Part shown: positions 6,001 to 15,743 of the stretch, one piece after another
How the letters are laid out: each line of letters begins with the position of its first letter
Numbering within the stretch: position 1 is the first letter of the stretch
NCBI GenBank assembly: GCA_916610825.1
Contig: OU744446.1
Span: 1,111,501-1,175,500, forward strand
Length of the DNA stretch: 64,000 nt
Source of the DNA: Haliclystus octoradiatus
Taxonomy: Eukaryota > Cnidaria > Staurozoa > Stauromedusae > Haliclystidae
Direction of reading: 5' to 3'
Notes under the pieces: generated by a model
What the model was told of the DNA's origin: nothing
The model's database searches: none
Seen by the model: the letters and a program-made list of their open reading frames with translations, nothing else
Program-made: the position numbers and the translations under genes

Positions 6001-7335
6001 ATATGAGCCCTATGATATGACTATGATATGAGCCCTATGATATGACTATGATATGAGCCCTATGATATGACTATGACATGAGACCTATGATATGACTATG
6101 ATATGAGCCCTATGATATGACTATGATATGAGCCCTATGATATGACTATGATATGAGCCCTATGATATGACTATGATATGAGCCCTATGATATGACTATG
6201 ATATGAGCCCTATGATATGACTTATGATATGAGCCCTATGATATGACTATGATATGAGCCCTATGATATGAGCCCTATGATATGACTATGATATGAGCCC
6301 TATGATATGAGCCCTATGATATGAGCCCTATGATATGACTATGATATGAGCCCTATGATATGACTATGACATGAGCCCTATGATATGACTATGATATGAG
6401 CCCTATGATATGACTATTATATGAGCCCTATGATATGACTATGACATGAGCCCTATGATATGACTATGATATGAGCCCTATGATATGACTATTATATGAG
6501 CCCTATGATATGACTTATGATATGAGCCCTATGATATGACTATGACATGAGCCCTATGATATGACTATTATATGAGCCCTATGATATGACTATGATATGA
6601 GCCCTATGATATGACTATGATATGAGCCCTATGATATGACTATGATATGAGCCCTATGATATGACTATGACATGAGCCCTATGATATGACTATGACATGA
6701 GCCCTATGATATGACTATGATATGAGCCCTATGATATGACTATGATATGAGCCCTATGATGTGACTATGATATGAGCCCTATGATATGACTATGATATGA
6801 GCCCTATGATATGACTATGATATGAGCCCTATGATATGACTATGATATGAGCCCTATGATATGACTATGACATGAGCCCTATGATATGAGCCCTATGATA
6901 TGACTATGATATGAGCCCTATGATATGACTATGATATGAGCCCTATGATATGAGCCCTATGATATGACTATGATATGAGCCCTATGATATGACTATGATA
7001 TGAGCCCTATGATATGACTATGATATGAGCCCTATGATATGACTATGACATGAGCCCTATGACATGAGCCCTATGATATGACTATGATATGAGCCCTATG
7101 ATATGACTATGACATGAGCCCTATGATATGAGCCCTATGATATGACTATGATATGAGCCCTATGATATGACTATGATATGAGCCCTATGATATGAGCCCT
7201 ATGATATGACTATGACATGAGCCCTATGATATGACTATGACATGAGCCCTATGATATGACTATGATATGAGCCCTATGATATGACTATGATATGAGCCCT
7301 ATGATGTGACTATGATATGAGCCCTATGATATGAC
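1..7335. repeat. Satellite array, 25-bp bipartite monomer, left block
   Basis: Uninterrupted tandem array that runs off the left edge. The monomer is a 14-bp half (TATGATATGAGCCC) followed by an 11-bp half (TATGATATGAC). The halves mostly alternate, but 14-14 and 11-11 neighbours also occur. Single-base variants recur: TATTATATGAG, TATGATAAGAG, TATGACATGAG, GAGCCTTA and TATATCAGCC. They cluster, so the array has local higher-order repeats. For example, a block with two TATTATATGAG monomers then GAGCCTTA recurs about every 324 bp near 1427-2500, and an extra TATGATATGATATGAG form marks about 4290-5010. There is no coding potential; stops fall in every monomer. Function is unknown; a heterochromatic satellite is the simple reading. 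Confidence 0.97.
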
Positions 7336-7340
7336 TGTAG

Positions 7341-7383
7341 GAACCTTCCTGAACCATCTAGAACATTCTAGAACATAGGAGAA
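7341..7383 (+). promoter_or_regulatory. Extended heat-shock element array in 5' LTR A
   Basis: Nine consecutive 5-bp steps read GAA(7341), TTC(7346), GAA(7351), ATC(7356), GAA(7361), TTC(7366), GAA(7371), TAG(7376), GAA(7381). Two perfect nGAAnnTTCnnGAAn triplets lie at 7340-7354 and 7360-7374, in phase with each other. This is the established binding site of heat-shock factor trimers. It sits about 70-115 bp upstream of the TATA-like box at 7455, which is a promoter-proximal place in U3. Heat response itself is inference. Confidence 0.75.
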
Positions 7384-7454
7384 CCTACATGACTCCCCGC
7401 ATGACTCACAATGACCGTGCATGATCTAGCAGCTTCTAGCATTTATCTAAACAC

Positions 7455-7460
7455 TATAAA
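7455..7460 (+). promoter_or_regulatory. TATA-like box of LTR A
   Basis: TATAAA followed by TACAG, downstream of the heat-shock elements. The same box occurs in the other three LTRs. It is the probable U3 core promoter. Confidence 0.45.
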
Positions 7461-7617
7461 TACAGTAAATGAAAACTATGAAAACTATGAGAACTTAATG
7501 TACAGTCTACTATCAACATGTCAACTTGGAATTAATATTATTATTCATAAGAAGAAATATACAAATCAATTCAACCTACGTTGTTATTATTATTTCTTCA
7601 ACATAATTCTACAGTTC

Positions 7618-7749
7618 TCATCAATTGGTCCGTCGAATTATAAGAACAACTCATCAATTGGTCCGTCGAATTATAAGAACAACTCATCAATTGGTCCGTC
7701 GAATTATAAGAACAACTCATCAATTGGTCCGTCGAATTACAAAAACAAC
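7618..7749 (+). repeat. 33-bp x4 tandem repeat across LTR end and primer-binding site, copy A
   Basis: Four exact-length 33-bp units (7618-7650, 7651-7683, 7684-7716, 7717-7749). Each unit begins TCATCAATTGGTCCGTCGAA, and the last has drifted near its end. The LTR terminus falls 6 bp into unit two. Each unit therefore contains an LTR end followed by a TGGTCCGTCGAA candidate primer-binding site, and the first candidate after the LTR starts at 7659. I could not match this site to a named tRNA. Confidence 0.8.
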
Positions 7750-8806
7750 TAATTATGAATAATCTTCAAGACTTTACAACATAATTTAAAATCTGAAAGT
7801 ATTTTATTACAACATGGAATTGAACACAACATTTTATTCACGACCGCGGCATCAAAACAATATAACTAGATTGATTTCCACACTGAAGAACAATGGCATT
7901 TTACGTAACTAATCAAAATACGCAGAAAACACAAGAAATGGAACTAAACACAAGAAATGGAACTAAACACAAGAAATGGAACTATAAACACAAGAGTGGA
8001 ACTATGGAACTACACACGAGAAATGGAAATAAACACAAGAAATGGAACTGAACACAAGGAATTGGATTACCCAAAACTGAAGAGACTGAACTAAAAAAGT
8101 AAGATTTTAAAATACTGAACATAAACCATTGAACATTCCAACATTTTGGAACTTTTAAATATTGAACACTAAACATTGGACATTCCAACATCATAAAACT
8201 TTTAAATATTGAAACATTCAACATTCAACTAAGAACATTGAAACACAATGAACACACTAAGAATACTAAACGAACTAAGAAACACACTAGAACACACAAC
8301 AGAGTTTAAAATTAAACACACAAGAATAAGCAACAACTCAAGAAAATACTGAATTCATCAAACACACAAGAATAAGCAACAACTCAAGAAAATACTGAAT
8401 TAATCAAGCACACAAGAATAAGCAACAACTCAAGAAAATACTGAATTCATCAAACTCACAAGCAAAAAATATGACTATAAAAGAAACATTGAAGATTACC
8501 AAGCTCATAGAAGAAACTGAAATTAAACCAAATATAACACTTGTATGAAAATTTCTTTTTCTGGAAATCCAAAGCAATTAAACAAATTGGTATGCACCAA
8601 AATTGTAATGAATTTTCTCATTAACTGTTATGCAATTAGTCTATAAGCATATCTAAAACCTTCATTAATAGCTTCTTCTACTATACCATAATTACTTACA
8701 TTTATATTTACATACATTTATTATTTACAATTTAGCATATATTAAAGCATTAATCTTTCTCATTTTTAGCCTATATCATGCACCTTTATTTATGGCTCCG
8801 CCATCT

Positions 8807-8818
8807 GGCGGGGGGAGT
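8807..8818 (+). other. Polypurine tract of copy A
   Basis: A GGCGGGGGGAG purine run ends 3 bp before the 3' LTR that starts at 8821. This is the usual plus-strand primer position of LTR elements and fixes the orientation of the element. Confidence 0.7.
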
Positions 8819-8820
8819 TA

Positions 8821-9141
8821 TGTAGGAACCTTCCTGAACCATCTAGAACATTCTAGAACATAGGAGAACCTACATGACTCCCCGCATGACTCACAATGAC
8901 CGTGCATGATCTAGCAGCTTCTAGCATTTATCTAAACACTATAAATACAGTAAATGAAAACTATGAAAACTATGAGAACTTAATGTACAGTCTACTATCA
9001 ACATGTCAACTTGGAATTAATATTATTATTCATAAGAAGAAATATACAAATCAATTCAACCTACGTTGTTATTATTATTTCTTCAACATAATTCTACAGT
9101 TCTCATCAATTGGTCCGTCGAATTATAAGAACAACTCATCA
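8821..9141 (+). repeat. 3' LTR, copy A
   Basis: Matches 7336-7656 throughout the bases compared. It is followed at once by TGAC and satellite. Its own heat-shock array is at 8826-8868. Confidence 0.82.
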
Positions 9142-10166
9142 TGACTATGATATGAGCCCTATGATATGACTATGATATGAGCCCTATGATATGACTATGA
9201 CATGAGCCCTATGATATGACTATGATATGAGCCCTATGATATGACTATTATATGAGCCCTATGATATGACTATGACATGAGCCCTATGATATGACTATGA
9301 TATGAGCCCTATGATATGACTATTATATGAGCCCTATGATATGACTTATGATATGAGCCCTATGATATGACTATGACATGAGCCCTATGATATGACTATT
9401 ATATGAGCCCTATGATATGACTATGATATGAGCCCTATGATATGACTATGATATGAGCCCTATGATATGACTATGATATGAGCCCTATGATATGACTATG
9501 ACATGAGCCCTATGATATGACTATGACATGAGCCCTATGATATGACTATGATATGAGCCCTATGATATGACTATGATATGAGCCCTATGATGTGACTATG
9601 ATATGAGCCCTATGATATGACTATGATATGAGCCCTATGATATGACTATGATATGAGCCCTATGATATGACTATGATATGAGCCCTATGATATGACTATG
9701 ACATGAGCCCTATGATATGAGCCCTATGATATGACTATGATATGAGCCCTATGATATGACTATGATATGAGCCCTATGATATGAGCCCTATGATATGACT
9801 ATGATATGAGCCCTATGATATGACTATGATATGAGCCCTATGATATGACTATGATATGAGCCCTATGATATGACTATGACATGAGCCCTATGACATGAGC
9901 CCTATGATATGACTATGATATGAGCCCTATGATATGACTATGACATGAGCCCTATGATATGAGCCCTATGATATGACTATGATATGAGCCCTATGATATG
10001 ACTATGATATGAGCCCTATGATATGAGCCCTATGATATGACTATGACATGAGCCCTATGATATGACTATGACATGAGCCCTATGATATGACTATGATATG
10101 AGCCCTATGATATGACTATGATATGAGCCCTATGATGTGACTATGATATGAGCCCTATGATATGAC
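9142..10166. repeat. Satellite block between the two retroelement copies
   Basis: Same 25-bp bipartite satellite. It is the duplicated counterpart of about 6311-7335, including the same order of variant monomers. Confidence 0.95.
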
Positions 10167-11972
10167 TGTAGGAACCTTCCTGAACCATCTAGAACATTCT
10201 AGAACATAGGAGAACCTACATGACTCCCCGCATGACTCACAATGACCGTGCATGATCTAGCAGCTTCTAGCATTTATCTAAACACTATAAATACAGTAAA
10301 TGAAAACTATGAAAACTATGAGAACTTAATGTACAGTCTACTATCAACATGTCAACTTGGAATTAATATTATTATTCATAAGAAGAAATATACAAATCAA
10401 TTCAACCTACGTTGTTATTATTATTTCTTCAACATAATTCTACAGTTCTCATCAATTGGTCCGTCGAATTATAAGAACAACTCATCAATTGGTCCGTCGA
10501 ATTATAAGAACAACTCATCAATTGGTCCGTCGAATTATAAGAACAACTCATCAATTGGTCCGTCGAATTACAAAAACAACTAATTATGAATAATCTTCAA
10601 GACTTTACAACATAATTTAAAATCTGAAAGTATTTTATTACAACATGGAATTGAACACAACATTTTATTCACGACCGCGGCATCAAAACAATATAACTAG
10701 ATTGATTTCCACACTGAAGAACAATGGCATTTTACGTAACTAATCAAAATACGCAGAAAACACAAGAAATGGAACTAAACACAAGAAATGGAACTAAACA
10801 CAAGAAATGGAACTATAAACACAAGAGTGGAACTATGGAACTACACACGAGAAATGGAAATAAACACAAGAAATGGAACTGAACACAAGGAATTGGATTA
10901 CCCAAAACTGAAGAGACTGAACTAAAAAAGTAAGATTTTAAAATACTGAACATAAACCATTGAACATTCCAACATTTTGGAACTTTTAAATATTGAACAC
11001 TAAACATTGGACATTCCAACATCATAAAACTTTTAAATATTGAAACATTCAACATTCAACTAAGAACATTGAAACACAATGAACACACTAAGAATACTAA
11101 ACGAACTAAGAAACACACTAGAACACACAACAGAGTTTAAAATTAAACACACAAGAATAAGCAACAACTCAAGAAAATACTGAATTCATCAAACACACAA
11201 GAATAAGCAACAACTCAAGAAAATACTGAATTAATCAAGCACACAAGAATAAGCAACAACTCAAGAAAATACTGAATTCATCAAACTCACAAGCAAAAAA
11301 TATGACTATAAAAGAAACATTGAAGATTACCAAGCTCATAGAAGAAACTGAAATTAAACCAAATATAACACTTGTATGAAAATTTCTTTTTCTGGAAATC
11401 CAAAGCAATTAAACAAATTGGTATGCACCAAAATTGTAATGAATTTTCTCATTAACTGTTATGCAATTAGTCTATAAGCATATCTAAAACCTTCATTAAT
11501 AGCTTCTTCTACTATACCATAATTACTTACATTTATATTTACATACATTTATTATTTACAATTTAGCATATATTAAAGCATTAATCTTTCTCATTTTTAG
11601 CCTATATCATGCACCTTTATTTATGGCTCCGCCATCTGGCGGGGGGAGTTATGTAGGAACCTTCCTGAACCATCTAGAACATTCTAGAACATAGGAGAAC
11701 CTACATGACTCCCCGCATGACTCACAATGACCGTGCATGATCTAGCAGCTTCTAGCATTTATCTAAACACTATAAATACAGTAAATGAAAACTATGAAAA
11801 CTATGAGAACTTAATGTACAGTCTACTATCAACATGTCAACTTGGAATTAATATTATTATTCATAAGAAGAAATATACAAATCAATTCAACCTACGTTGT
11901 TATTATTATTTCTTCAACATAATTCTACAGTTCTCATCAATTGGTCCGTCGAATTATAAGAACAACTCATCA
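10167..11972 (+). mobile_element. Non-autonomous LTR retrotransposon, copy B
   Basis: Counterpart of copy A at offset 2831 with no difference noticed: LTRs 10167-10487 and 11652-11972, heat-shock arrays 10172-10214 and 11657-11699, 33-bp repeat 10449-10580, purine tract 11638-11649. TGAC follows at 11973-11976. Because satellite flanks are duplicated too, copy B came from segmental duplication and not from a second insertion. Confidence 0.85.
10172..10214 (+). promoter_or_regulatory. Extended heat-shock element array in 5' LTR B
   Basis: Same seven perfect GAA/TTC pentamers in a nine-step array as in LTR A. Repeated again in the 3' LTR at 11657-11699. Confidence 0.72.
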
Positions 11973-14416
11973 TGACTATGATATGAGCCCTATGATATGA
12001 CTATGATATGAGCCCTATGATATGACTATGATATGAGCCCTATGATATGACTATGACATGAGCCCTATGATATGAGCCCTATGATATGACTATGATATGA
12101 GCCCTATGATATGACTATGACATGAGCCCTATGATATGACTATGACATGAGCCCTATGATATGAGCCCTATGATATGACTATGACATGAGCCCTATGATA
12201 TGAGCCCTATGATATGACTATGACATGAGCCCTATGATATGACTATGATATGAGCCCTATGATATGAGCCCTATGATATGAGCCCTATGATATGACTTTG
12301 ATATGAGCCCTATGATATGACTATGATATGAGCCCTATGATATGACTATGATATGAGCCCTATGATATGACTTTGATATGAGCCCTATGATATGAGCCCT
12401 ATCATATGAGCCCTATGATATGACTATGATATGACTTTGATATGAGCCCTATGATATGACTATGACATGAGCCCTATGATATGACTATGACATGAGCCCT
12501 ATGATATGAGCCCTATGATATGACTATGACATGAGCCCTATGATATGACTATGATATGAGCCCTATGATATGAGCCCTATGATATGAGCCCTATGATATG
12601 ACTTTGATATGAGCCCTATGATATGACTATGATATGAGCCCTATGATATGACTATGATATGAGCCCTATGATATGACTTTGATATGAGCCCTATGATATG
12701 AGCCCTATCATATGAGCCCTATGATATGACTATGATATGACTTTGATATGAGCCCTATGATATGACTATGATATGAGCCCTATGATATGACTATGATATG
12801 AGCCCTATGATATGACTATGATATGAGCCCTATGATATGACTTTGATATGAGCCCTATGATATGAGCCCTATCATATGAGCCCTATGATATGACTATGAT
12901 ATGACTTTGATATGAGCCCTATGATATGACTATGACATGAGCCCTATGATATGACTATGATATGAGCCCTATGATATGACTATGATATGAGCCCTATGAT
13001 ATGACTATGATATGAGCCCTATGATATGACTATGACATGAGCCCTATGATATGACTATGATATGAGCCCTATGATATGACTATGATATGAGCCCTATGAT
13101 ATGACTATGACATGAGCCCTATGATATGACTATGACATGAGCCCTATGATATGACTATGATATGAGCCCTATGATATGACTATGATATGAGCCCTATGAT
13201 ATGACTATGATATGAGCCCTATGATATGACTATGATATGAGCCCTATGATATGACTATGACATGAGCCCTATGATATGACTATGACATGAGCCCTATGAT
13301 ATGAGCCCTATGATATGACTATGACATGAGCCCTATGATATGACTATGATATGAGCCCTATGATATGAGCCCTATGATATGAGCCCTATGATATGACTTT
13401 GATATGAGCCCTATGATATGACTATGATATGAGCCCTATGATATGACTATGATATGAGCCCTATGATATGACTTTGATATGAGCCCTATGATATGAGCCC
13501 TATCATATGAGCCCTATGATATGACTATGATATGACTTTGATATGAGCCCTATGATATGACTATGACATGAGCCCTATGATATGACTATGACATGAGCCC
13601 TATGATATGACTATGATATGAGCCCTATGATATGACTATGACATGAGCCCTATGATATGACTATGACATGAGCCCTATGATATGAGCCCTATGATATGAC
13701 TATGACATGAGCCCTATGATATGAGCCCTATGATATGACTATGATATGAGCCCTATGATATGACTATGACATGAGCCCTATGATATGACTATGATATGAG
13801 CCCTATGATATGACTTTGATATGAGCCCTATGATATGACTATGATATGAGCCCTATGATATGACTATGATATGAGCCCTATGATATGACTATGATATGAC
13901 TATGATATGAGCCCTATGATATGACTATGATATGAGCCCTATGATATGACTATGATATGAGCCCTATGATATGACTATGATATGAGCCCTATGATATGAC
14001 TATGATATGAGCCCTATGATATGACTATGATATGACTATGATATGAGCCCTATGATATGACTATGATATGAGCCCTATGATATGACTATGATATGACTAT
14101 GATATGAGCCCTATGATATGACTATGATATGAGCCCTATGATATGACTATGATATGAGCCCTATGATATGACTATGATATGAGCCCTATGATATGACTAT
14201 GATATGAGCCCTATGATATGACTTTGATATGAGCCCTATGATATGACTATGATATGAGCCCTATGATATGACTATGATATGAGCCCTATGATATGACTTT
14301 GATATGAGCCCTATGATATGACTATGATATGAGCCCTATGATATGACTATGATATGAGCCCTATGATATGACTATAATATGAGCCCTATGATATGACTAT
14401 GATATGAGCCCTATGA
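11973..14416. repeat. Satellite array, right block
   Basis: Same satellite with a different set of variants: TGACTTTGATATGAG and ATCATATGAG forms, and 11-11 neighbours. A block with ACTTTGATATGAG, then two 14-bp halves, then ATCATATGAG recurs near 12365, 12675, 12840 and 13465, showing separate higher-order structure. The array ends abruptly at about 14416 in unique sequence. Confidence 0.95.
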
Positions 14417-14723
14417 GGCCGTTGTCAAGTTTCCAGAATGAATGATAAGTAACTTTTTTCCTTTTTGACGGGTGCAGTACACACGATAATAATCAAACAC
14501 GCCTTCAAAACTATGGGCGTATATCTTAGATTTTGCGATCGACATGAGCTTAGAGGCGTGCCAGAAATATTTAGCATGGCTCATGGAGAGAAAGGCTTAT
14601 GCGTGTAGTGGTGAGCTGAAATTTGATCTTTAAAAGGCAAAATTAAATTAATGTCCCCACAGTTCCGTTTCCACGATCTTTCCTGTTCTGCACAAGACGC
14701 GAGTGACACATTAATTACTGATA
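14417..14723. other. Unique spacer between satellite and ATP-grasp gene
   Basis: About 300 bp of unique AT-rich sequence. It presumably holds the 5'UTR and promoter of the next gene; a possible 3' splice site (CCCCACAG) ends near 14661. No clear promoter motif was seen. Confidence 0.4.
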
Positions 14724-15743
14724 ATGAAATATATTGTCTTGAACAAACCCTTTATCTACATTGAGAATTCAATTCCAAAGTCATGGAAAGACAAAGCTGA
14801 GGTAGTTCATCTTGAAGAATGGGAAAACGTGCATAAAGATATATCCAAAGATGAATTTTTCGCTATTAATGATAGTGGGTATAGTGCAGTCTCAGCGCAC
14901 GTTGGACCTGATCGTGGTTTTTGCAAAAAGCTTGATAAATTAGCAAATAACAAGTTTATTGCTAGGTCTACACTGAAAAGCTTACAAGATATACCATATG
15001 TGTTATGTGATGATAATGTTGTCAAATGGCCTTACGGATCCAACGATAAACTATTTGCAAAACCAGTGGATGGATTCGCAGGAAAAGGCAGCATTAAAAA
15101 TGTAAAGAATGGAGATGTTCTACCAGACATTGGACAACCTTACTTGATCGAGAAATACATTGACGATAAGCACCAAAGAATACTCGTTGACGGATATATT
15201 TGCGGAGACGAAATCGGAATCCTGACTACGGGGGACAACATCTATCTCGACACGAAAAAAATTCAGTATCATTATCTTGGATTTCCTAGTAAATATCACT
15301 CACATCCAAAGCTCAAAGAGAAGTTTTTAGAAGTAATGAGAGAGTTGAAGGAGGTCACAGGATGTGACAACCAAATTATTGATGTCGAGTTCTTCGCTAT
15401 TGACGGTACATTTTCTGTAATGGAAATCAATCCAAGAATTACATGCAACGCTGTTCCTCTCTATCCAGAAATTATTGGCGTTAACGTGTGGGAGTTCATG
15501 GCAAATCTTCTCAGAGGCAAGGTGATGGCATACCCAAAGAAGCCAGAAAAGACGGGGGTTGTAAGATATACCTACACGTACAGCGACCAACCGAAGTTTA
15601 TTCAACATAACGAAACTACGTTTTCAATTTATCTCACAGATTATTCGCATACGTACTCGTTCTGTGAAATTACCACTCCTCATTTGGAGCTGATTAAAGA
15701 AATTGATGGAAAATATCCAATGAGAATGCCACTGGATGATTAA
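14724..15743 (+). CDS. ATP-grasp domain protein, intronless
   Basis: 339 residues in one exon. An in-frame TAA at 14712 precedes the ATG, so the start is well supported. It has ATP-grasp fold signatures: K113 in FAKP and a glycine-rich loop (G117, G120, G122) for ATP phosphates, the hinge-like IEKY at 142-145, acidic D220 and E222 in IDVEFF, and the metal-binding EINPRI at 234-239. Enzymes of this superfamily join a carboxylate to an amine or thiol through an acyl phosphate, but the substrate cannot be read from the sequence. The first 80 residues would be the pre-ATP-grasp part. No signal peptide or membrane segment is seen. The gene borders the satellite. Lack of introns is unlike the split genes further right and fits a retrocopy or transfer from a microbe; codon use looks as AT-rich as its surroundings. 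Family call sure, function unknown. Confidence 0.86.
   Translation: MKYIVLNKPFIYIENSIPKSWKDKAEVVHLEEWENVHKDISKDEFFAINDSGYSAVSAHVGPDRGFCKKLDKLANNKFIARSTLKSLQDIPYVLCDDNVVKWPYGSNDKLFAKPVDGFAGKGSIKNVKNGDVLPDIGQPYLIEKYIDDKHQRILVDGYICGDEIGILTTGDNIYLDTKKIQYHYLGFPSKYHSHPKLKEKFLEVMRELKEVTGCDNQIIDVEFFAIDGTFSVMEINPRITCNAVPLYPEIIGVNVWEFMANLLRGKVMAYPKKPEKTGVVRYTYTYSDQPKFIQHNETTFSIYLTDYSHTYSFCEITTPHLELIKEIDGKYPMRMPLDD

Follow-up and report, generated by a model that had tools for sequence, protein, structure and literature searches.

A regular heat-shock-element array opens the LTRs of a non-coding retroelement family of Haliclystus octoradiatus and also stands alone in the genome

The window analysed here, a stretch of 64,000 bp from Haliclystus octoradiatus (C1:1111501-1175500 of a 261.9-Mb assembly in 33 contigs, in which all genome-wide searches were run), contains an element with the organization of an LTR retroelement, as had been predicted. 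Its 5' LTR (7336..7623, plus strand) and 3' LTR (8821..9108, plus strand) are identical direct repeats of 288 bp of the TG...CA type, starting with TGTAGG and finishing with CTCATCA. They enclose a non-coding internal region of 1197 bp (7624..8820, plus strand), in which a 12-nt primer binding site, TGGTCCGTCGAA (7626..7637, plus strand), complementary to a tRNA-Tyr-like 3' end with CCA, lies by the 5' LTR and a polypurine-like tract read from the sequence, GGCGGGGGGAG (8807..8817, plus strand), lies ahead of the 3' LTR. A short target site duplication, TGAC, flanks the whole, with its left copy at 7332..7335 and its right copy at 9142..9145 (both unstranded), the latter beyond an extra 33-bp primer-site unit (9109-9141); the element extends from 7336 to 9141, that is, over 1806 bp.

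Two further LTRs, identical to the first two, are found at 10167..10454 and 11652..11939 (both plus strand). These belong to an exact tandem duplication with a period of 2831 bp (6314..12031, unstranded), whereby the segment 6314-9200 is repeated at 9145-12031; because this duplication copied the element together with flanking satellite, the four window LTRs count once, and treating them as four independent cases was rejected in favor of one insertion, with its target duplication TGAC. The satellite itself, a 25-bp repeat (ATGAGCCCTATGATATGACTATGAT), occupies about 10 kb in three blocks between window positions 296 and 14416, part of it duplicated with the element. It is adjoined by an uninterrupted open reading frame of 342 codons (14715-15743, plus strand) with an ATP-grasp domain (PF02655), for which a bacterial origin is possible, though this is a guess. 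A search of the 64-kb window with Rfam at gathering scores gave no match.

After the 5' LTR, four 33-bp units carrying TGGTCCGTCGAA follow one another in tandem (7624-7750, with starts at 7624, 7657, 7690 and 7723), and the insertion ends after one such unit (9109-9141), as if LTR length changed with the primer site used; priming from the second site would have lengthened the LTR to 321 bp. Genome-wide, 11 tRNA-like loci match the primer site at their 3' end once CCA is appended (control 0). Two of these loci were retrieved and have the form CCGTCGATAGCTCAGTTGG...GACTGTAG-intron-...GGTTCGACTCCGGTTCGACGGA, with the intron after GTAG; from our own reading of the two we take the primer for a tRNA-Tyr, and ARAGORN in bacterial mode called the same two loci Thr and Leu. 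A scan for open stretches detected neither gag nor pol genes, the longest stretch wholly contained in the internal region having 80 codons (115 across the LTR and the primer-site repeats); the element is non-coding and hence non-autonomous, which is all that we claim in this respect. TRIM elements have a total size under about 1 kb. A non-coding interior with primer site and polypurine tract is found here as in a TRIM, and the element is TRIM-like only, because its 1806 bp exceed that size. As described in the consulted portion of PMC3532108, PbTRIM of the harvester ant resembles it in being non-coding and in having a tRNA primer site, a polypurine tract, 4-bp duplications and solo LTRs, whereas the Haliclystus element is about 1.8 kb long, uses a tRNA-Tyr-like rather than a tRNA-Leu primer, has tandem primer sites and carries an array of heat-shock elements (HSEs).

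This array lies at the very start of the LTR. Nine 5-bp steps can be read at 7340-7384 (unstranded), of which seven are perfect GAA/TTC pentamers in alternation, with cores GAA 7341, TTC 7346, GAA 7351, GAA 7361, TTC 7366, GAA 7371 and GAA 7381 (7341-7383 overall) and with ATC 7356 and TAG 7376 as the interrupting steps; this description, including two GAAnnTTCnnGAA sites at 7341 and 7361, bears out the original prediction. The same prediction had placed the array in all four window LTRs, where it is indeed found, identical, with starts at 7341, 8826 (cores 8826-8868), 10172 (10172-10214) and 11657 (11657-11699), but these occurrences stem from one insertion that was tandemly duplicated. Part of the regularity is due to a 10-bp direct repeat, TCTAGAACAT, present twice. 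The array is nevertheless not a chance product, in agreement with what had been anticipated, because shuffles never exceed four pentamers as against seven: when the dinucleotides of the 288-bp LTR were shuffled 3000 times, four were reached in 4 cases, and 20,000 shuffles of the 54-mer that holds the array gave four in 3 cases; genome-wide pattern counts (below) likewise speak for the array. In the internal region of the element the best pentamer run is three. A TATAAA box (7455..7460, plus strand) begins 72 bp past the end of the last core and 114 bp from the start of the first, matching the predicted distance of about 70-115 bp, and the arrangement of an HSE series upstream of a TATA box supports the textbook layout of a putative heat-shock promoter. 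In terms of the 3P and 4P site classes, which come from a Brassicaceae classification in the part of PMC5059998 consulted, the array consists of two 3P sites plus one extra pentamer; it does not qualify as a 4P site, since the run is broken at ATC and at TAG.

On its left the array is bordered by TGTAGG (7336..7341, plus strand; LTR positions 1-6), which is the left end of the LTR, and on its right by CCTACA (7384..7389, plus strand; LTR positions 49-54), an inverted copy of that end. Further downstream lies TGACTCA (7402..7408, unstranded), which by name we take to be a consensus AP-1-like site and whose relevance is weakly indicated.

The genome offers an internal standard for judging such a layout. 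A PF00447 profile search returned three HSF_DNA-bind loci above the cut-off. On C7 the profile is matched only in part, and the aligned stretch contains one stop, which we read as an exon edge; the open part of this locus (L151) encodes an exon sequence of 36 letters, with SFVRQLNM, and its best match is to HSF4 chains (E 5.8e-13), followed by HSF1; judged by this similarity, the host has an HSF1/HSF4-like HSF. A PF00012 search gave three intronless hsp70 frames, each full-length, free of stops and 640-641 codons long; two of them diverge, with match ends 508 bp apart and a common promoter (L152). As a positive control, the three hsp70 promoters were read and found to carry TTCnnGAAnnnTC runs with TAAATA downstream: L152 has TTCcaGAAtaaTCtcGAAcaTTtC at 288 and AATAAATAG at 384, its other strand has a run at 290, with the fourth core changed (GTA), and AATAAATAG at 386, and the promoter of the third gene (L153) has TTCtcGAAtagTCtcGAA at 232 and AATAAATAG at 327. 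The distance from the last perfect core to TAAATA, the hsp70 box by our own choice, is 81, 91 and 80 bp, as compared with 72 bp to TATAAA in the LTR; from the first core to the box it is 98, 98 and 97 bp, as compared with 114 bp. The hsp70 promoters are therefore like the LTR in having, within the same genome, a series of HSEs placed a comparable distance ahead of a TATA-like box, and unlike it in having at most three perfect pentamers in nine steps instead of seven and TAAATA instead of TATAAA, the latter being absent from all three promoters read. A weak resemblance may also be seen between ATCTAGAACATTC of the LTR and ATCTCGAACATTTC of hsp70. In its architecture the LTR thus appears to resemble an extended host heat-shock promoter with similar, not equal, spacing.

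The array has spread with the family throughout the genome. Its central 29-mer (one position free) has 443 sites at up to three mismatches (reversed control 0), the 24-mer around the TATA box has 365 (control 4), and the pattern GAAnnTTCnnGAAn7GAAnnTTCnnGAA occurs in 439 places (reversed control 0); among 100 of these 439 that were listed, about 59 were judged by eye to be LTR family and about 41 other repeats. Among 19 solo LTRs, 12 are surrounded by exact 4-bp target duplications, as are 6 of 9 LTR pairs; of the other three pairs, one joins LTRs of different elements and two are truncated where the locus ends. Whether copies of the LTR conserve the pentamers had been set beforehand as one test of the original prediction, with loss as the refuting outcome, and the prediction withstands it. 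Among young copies, sampled as the first 30 listed of the 365 TATA sites (24-mer exact, the four window LTRs included), 28 of 30 keep at least six of the seven perfect pentamers and 16 keep all seven; when each element or duplication contributes one LTR, the respective counts are 18 and 9 of 20. Cores change no slower in these 30 young copies than the rest of U3 does (15/628 versus 38/1449). Five of them (L050, L051, L054, L055 and L067) share a GAA-to-GCA change that breaks the third pentamer, thereby providing a natural mutant series for HSF binding.

Older copies were sampled through the R-U5 region of a diverged copy, for which 20 of 41 rows were fetched and 11 were usable; L097, L098, L099, L101, L107, L110, L111, L112 and L115 were dropped, with the 5' end missing or internally deleted. 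In these 11 copies, differences from the window LTR amount to 10/218 in cores, 23/280 in spacers, 45/488 in other U3 and 182/1708 in R-U5, and cores are kept better than other U3 (p 0.034) and than R-U5 (p 0.004); cores do not differ significantly from spacers (n=11, p 0.15). At least six perfect pentamers are retained in 6 of 11 and all seven in one, and in two copies (L113 and L114) 10-bp deletions leave the 5-bp phase intact. There is hence modest evidence that the array has been kept over the history of the family, with the reservation that LTR starts may also be conserved for integration: the longest conserved stretch of ONSEN is its first 25-30 bp, according to the portion of PMC5059998 consulted.

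Several other repeats are intertwined with the family. Nine loci (L071, L072, L118, L119, L122, L127, L129, L131 and L136) share a common left flank of the LTR copy, and it seems that here an LTR copy with its array was multiplied as a passenger of another repeat; L071 also has PIF1 helicase and Helitron_like_N matches. L083 and L084 contain RVT_1 open reading frames between or within LTRs, that of L084 inside the 5' LTR; as candidates for the element's own pol these reverse-transcriptase stretches were rejected, being by our own reading LINE-like insertions. No autonomous partner was found among the loci read. A second repeat family (L014, L026, L031 and L038; L022 and L030) has CCTGCGAAA-type ends and TTCATGAA palindromes, 19-22 per 3-kb locus in the first four loci, 4 in L022 and 8 in L030, and its long GAA/TTC runs, in the form of GTTCATGAAC palindromes, also match the HSE-array pattern; the part of L031 that was read has no long open reading frame. 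This second family may bind HSF, or its palindromes may be transposase-site repeats. Because of its GTTCATGAAC runs, it must be granted that transposons can acquire GAA/TTC runs for which no role in a promoter is known.

The most surprising part, absent from the original prediction, is that the piece between TGTAGG and CCTACA appears to insert alone elsewhere in the genome. Six loci hold this 53-54 bp piece only (L070, L074, L090, L095, L121 and L148) and seven are composite: two units lie in L081 and in L135, inverted pairs occur in L089 and within L092 and L141, in L093 a piece of LTR is fused to a second unit that has CCTACA as its end, and L123 is a degenerate inverted form of the unit. 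The 13 scored loci are a partial census. L070, L074 and L081 were found by the array pattern; L089, L090, L092, L093 and L095 by a pattern excluding T after CCTACA (11 places: two in one full element, two in L089, and one each in L081 and L090-L095); L141, together with L140, by a looser no-T pattern (13 places); L121, L123 and L135 by a GAAAC-variant pattern (32 places, all read); and L148 by a T-then-not-G pattern (3 places). L091 and L140 stand outside the 13, their left boundary not being scoreable, whereas L123 stands inside and is counted as a miss; L094 and L147 were rejected as ordinary LTRs. The loci were read first and the unit boundaries then placed by eye, with left starts entered by hand and the right end taken as the last CTACA in range (the first for the six simple loci).

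Outside TGTAGG/CCTACA, exact 4-bp duplications are present at 10 of the 13 loci (five of six simple, five of seven composite), namely GTTT, TGTG, ACTA, AATG, AGCA, ATAG, TATT, AGAG, AGTA and AGTG, while a flank-exchange control yielded no exact and 16 one-mismatch duplications in 156. One-mismatch duplications are found at L090 and L093 and prove little, because 16 of 156 exchanged flanks match equally well; L123 fails, with three mismatches by the last-CTACA rule and one (CACG/CACT) with an inner CCTACA.

Such units may be accounted for in other ways than by the integration machinery of the retroelement. They could be independent miniature DNA transposons, Ginger-like and with a Gypsy-type transposase, captured at the start of the LTR: TGTNR-type ends and 4-bp duplications mark Ginger too in the portion of PMC2836005 consulted, and L089 has the appearance of an inverted-repeat element of 135 bp flanked by the duplication AATG. 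The same source gives duplications CCGG, CCGT or ACGG for Ginger1 and the target RTATAY for Ginger2, and none of the ten exact duplications is one of the former or TATA, the middle of the latter. The composites L093, L140 and L141 hold further LTR or polypurine-side sequence, with L141 containing the element's 11-base polypurine-like tract in reverse, and in L081 the TTA before the second unit equals the three bases preceding the 3' LTR; on account of L141 and L081 the composites look retroelement-derived, and with different targets and further retroelement sequence in some units we give the Ginger explanation little credence. Equally improbable in our estimation is that each small unit was once a solo LTR and later lost, by deletion, the stretch from the CA at 53-54 to the CA of the LTR end. 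Both sites do end in CA, and a deletion guided by microhomology would preserve the target duplication made at insertion; it would, however, have to use the same pair of breakpoints at several loci whose exact duplications differ, and the inverted-unit composites L089 and L141 are not simple deletions.

A broader alternative concerns the array as such, whose GAA/TTC regularity could be a structural by-product of a dyad-rich U3 terminus (TGTAGG...CCTACA) that is recognized by integrase and has grown by 10-bp slippage and fold-back, with its likeness to HSEs being incidental. The array fills exactly the piece between the inverted ends and is kept in the stand-alone units, the 54-mer is more self-complementary than its shuffles (24/54 versus a mean of 14.8, with 186 of 5000 shuffles as high), GTTCATGAAC runs are carried by other repeats, young copies are without core constraint, and cores are kept no better than spacers. 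Ordinary integrase ends, on the other hand, need only a short terminal sequence, seven pentamers stand in one 5-bp register before a TATA box at roughly the hsp70 spacing, and in older copies cores are better kept than neighboring U3; we consider the by-product explanation unlikely, though it retains some weight.

The reading that would best bring together the array, its spread with the family, the retroelement anatomy, the hsp70-like layout and the stand-alone units with their duplications is that of a non-autonomous LTR element that is driven by HSF and inducible by heat, and whose enhancer also moves independently, to which, arguing from sequence, we assign a probability of roughly 0.57. 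The idea of a heat-activated, HSE-driven LTR element, as originally put forward, is to that extent partly supported. On heat or protein stress, HSF trimers would occupy both GAA-TTC-GAA sites together with the pentamer beside them and thereby activate transcription at the TATA box, which lies 72 bp further downstream; an autonomous partner element would supply reverse transcriptase and integrase. The integrase would apparently take the internal CCTACA (LTR 49-54) as a right end, so that pieces consisting of U3 alone, 53-54 bp long, or composites made from them by fold-back, would insert with the 4-bp duplication usual for the family, and promoterless HSE cassettes would thereby be scattered; the inverted composites could arise if, in reverse transcription, the strand folded back at the TTCTAGAA palindrome. 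More tentatively, and at less than even odds, we propose that the array between its two integrase ends is a detachable enhancer, a 54-bp HSF-binding cassette that inserts while lacking a promoter, a primer site and any coding sequence, and would seed bare heat-response switches that could put nearby genes under HSF control. It is also conceivable, albeit somewhat unlikely, that the array binds HSF in a family that is silenced, so that the motif is without present effect. The window copy sits in satellite, and genes with HSEs from worm Helitrons show more repressive histone marks in the consulted part of PMC6927752; recent activity is nonetheless indicated by the identical LTRs of the window element and by at least eight further genomic places that match the first 300 bases at 100% identity among the matches listed.

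Among known systems, the closest analogy to an HSF-driven LTR element is ONSEN. In the portion of PMC3907296 consulted, nTTCnnGAAn heat-responsive elements (HREs) lie in the LTRs of all Arabidopsis copies, HSFA2 binding is shown in vitro, and ONSEN requires HSFA1/HSFA2. ONSEN/COPIA78 and heat-responsive Brassicaceae COPIA elements are like the Haliclystus element in having adjacent nGAAn motifs in the LTR (PMC3907296 and PMC5059998, in the parts consulted); the strong HRE of ONSEN arose through duplication of a half-site, in the part of PMC5059998 consulted, and the Haliclystus array also has a 10-bp repeat. HSEs in the LTR upstream of the promoter are thus found here, as sequence motifs, in the ONSEN manner, and by analogy the element may work like ONSEN, family membership not being implied. 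ONSEN is unlike it as a plant Copia element with HSFA2 binding and heat induction shown in what was consulted of PMC3907296, as opposed to a non-coding animal element with a longer but interrupted array, the piece that holds this array also standing alone.

Helitrons lack target site duplications, and a Helitron with HSEs was rejected as an identity for the family, 4-bp duplications being found at stand-alone units, solo LTRs and LTR pairs. The HSE Helitrons of Caenorhabditis are nonetheless comparable in that a transposon family scatters HSE clusters in an animal genome, 61.4% of HSEs in C. elegans lying in Helitrons; they are unlike it as DNA transposons with HSF-1 occupancy shown, in the part of PMC6927752 consulted, whereas the Haliclystus element belongs to the LTR type, makes 4-bp target duplications and has the HSEs in its own promoter. 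Heat-inducible LTR elements occur in C. elegans lacking HRDE-1 according to the consulted part of PMC4714518, and a term search of its main text gave neither 'hsf-1' nor 'heat shock element'.

HSF-controlled, heat-activated LTR elements were known before in plants, as ONSEN, and Helitrons that scatter HSEs were known in worms; within the open-licence literature, searched by titles and the beginnings of abstracts, no animal LTR element with a promoter HSE array was found, and the fuller literature may hold one. What is new is that the array is bounded by TGTAGG and CCTACA and that this piece of 53-54 bp occurs separately as well, singly or in composites, with target duplications of its own. If confirmed, the family would provide an animal case with an internal yardstick, the hsp70 promoters of the host, along with a natural series of arrays with seven, six or fewer intact pentamers. 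The stand-alone 54-bp units, in turn, would make the rewiring of the heat-shock response by transposons testable at single enhancers that are almost free of other transposon sequence.
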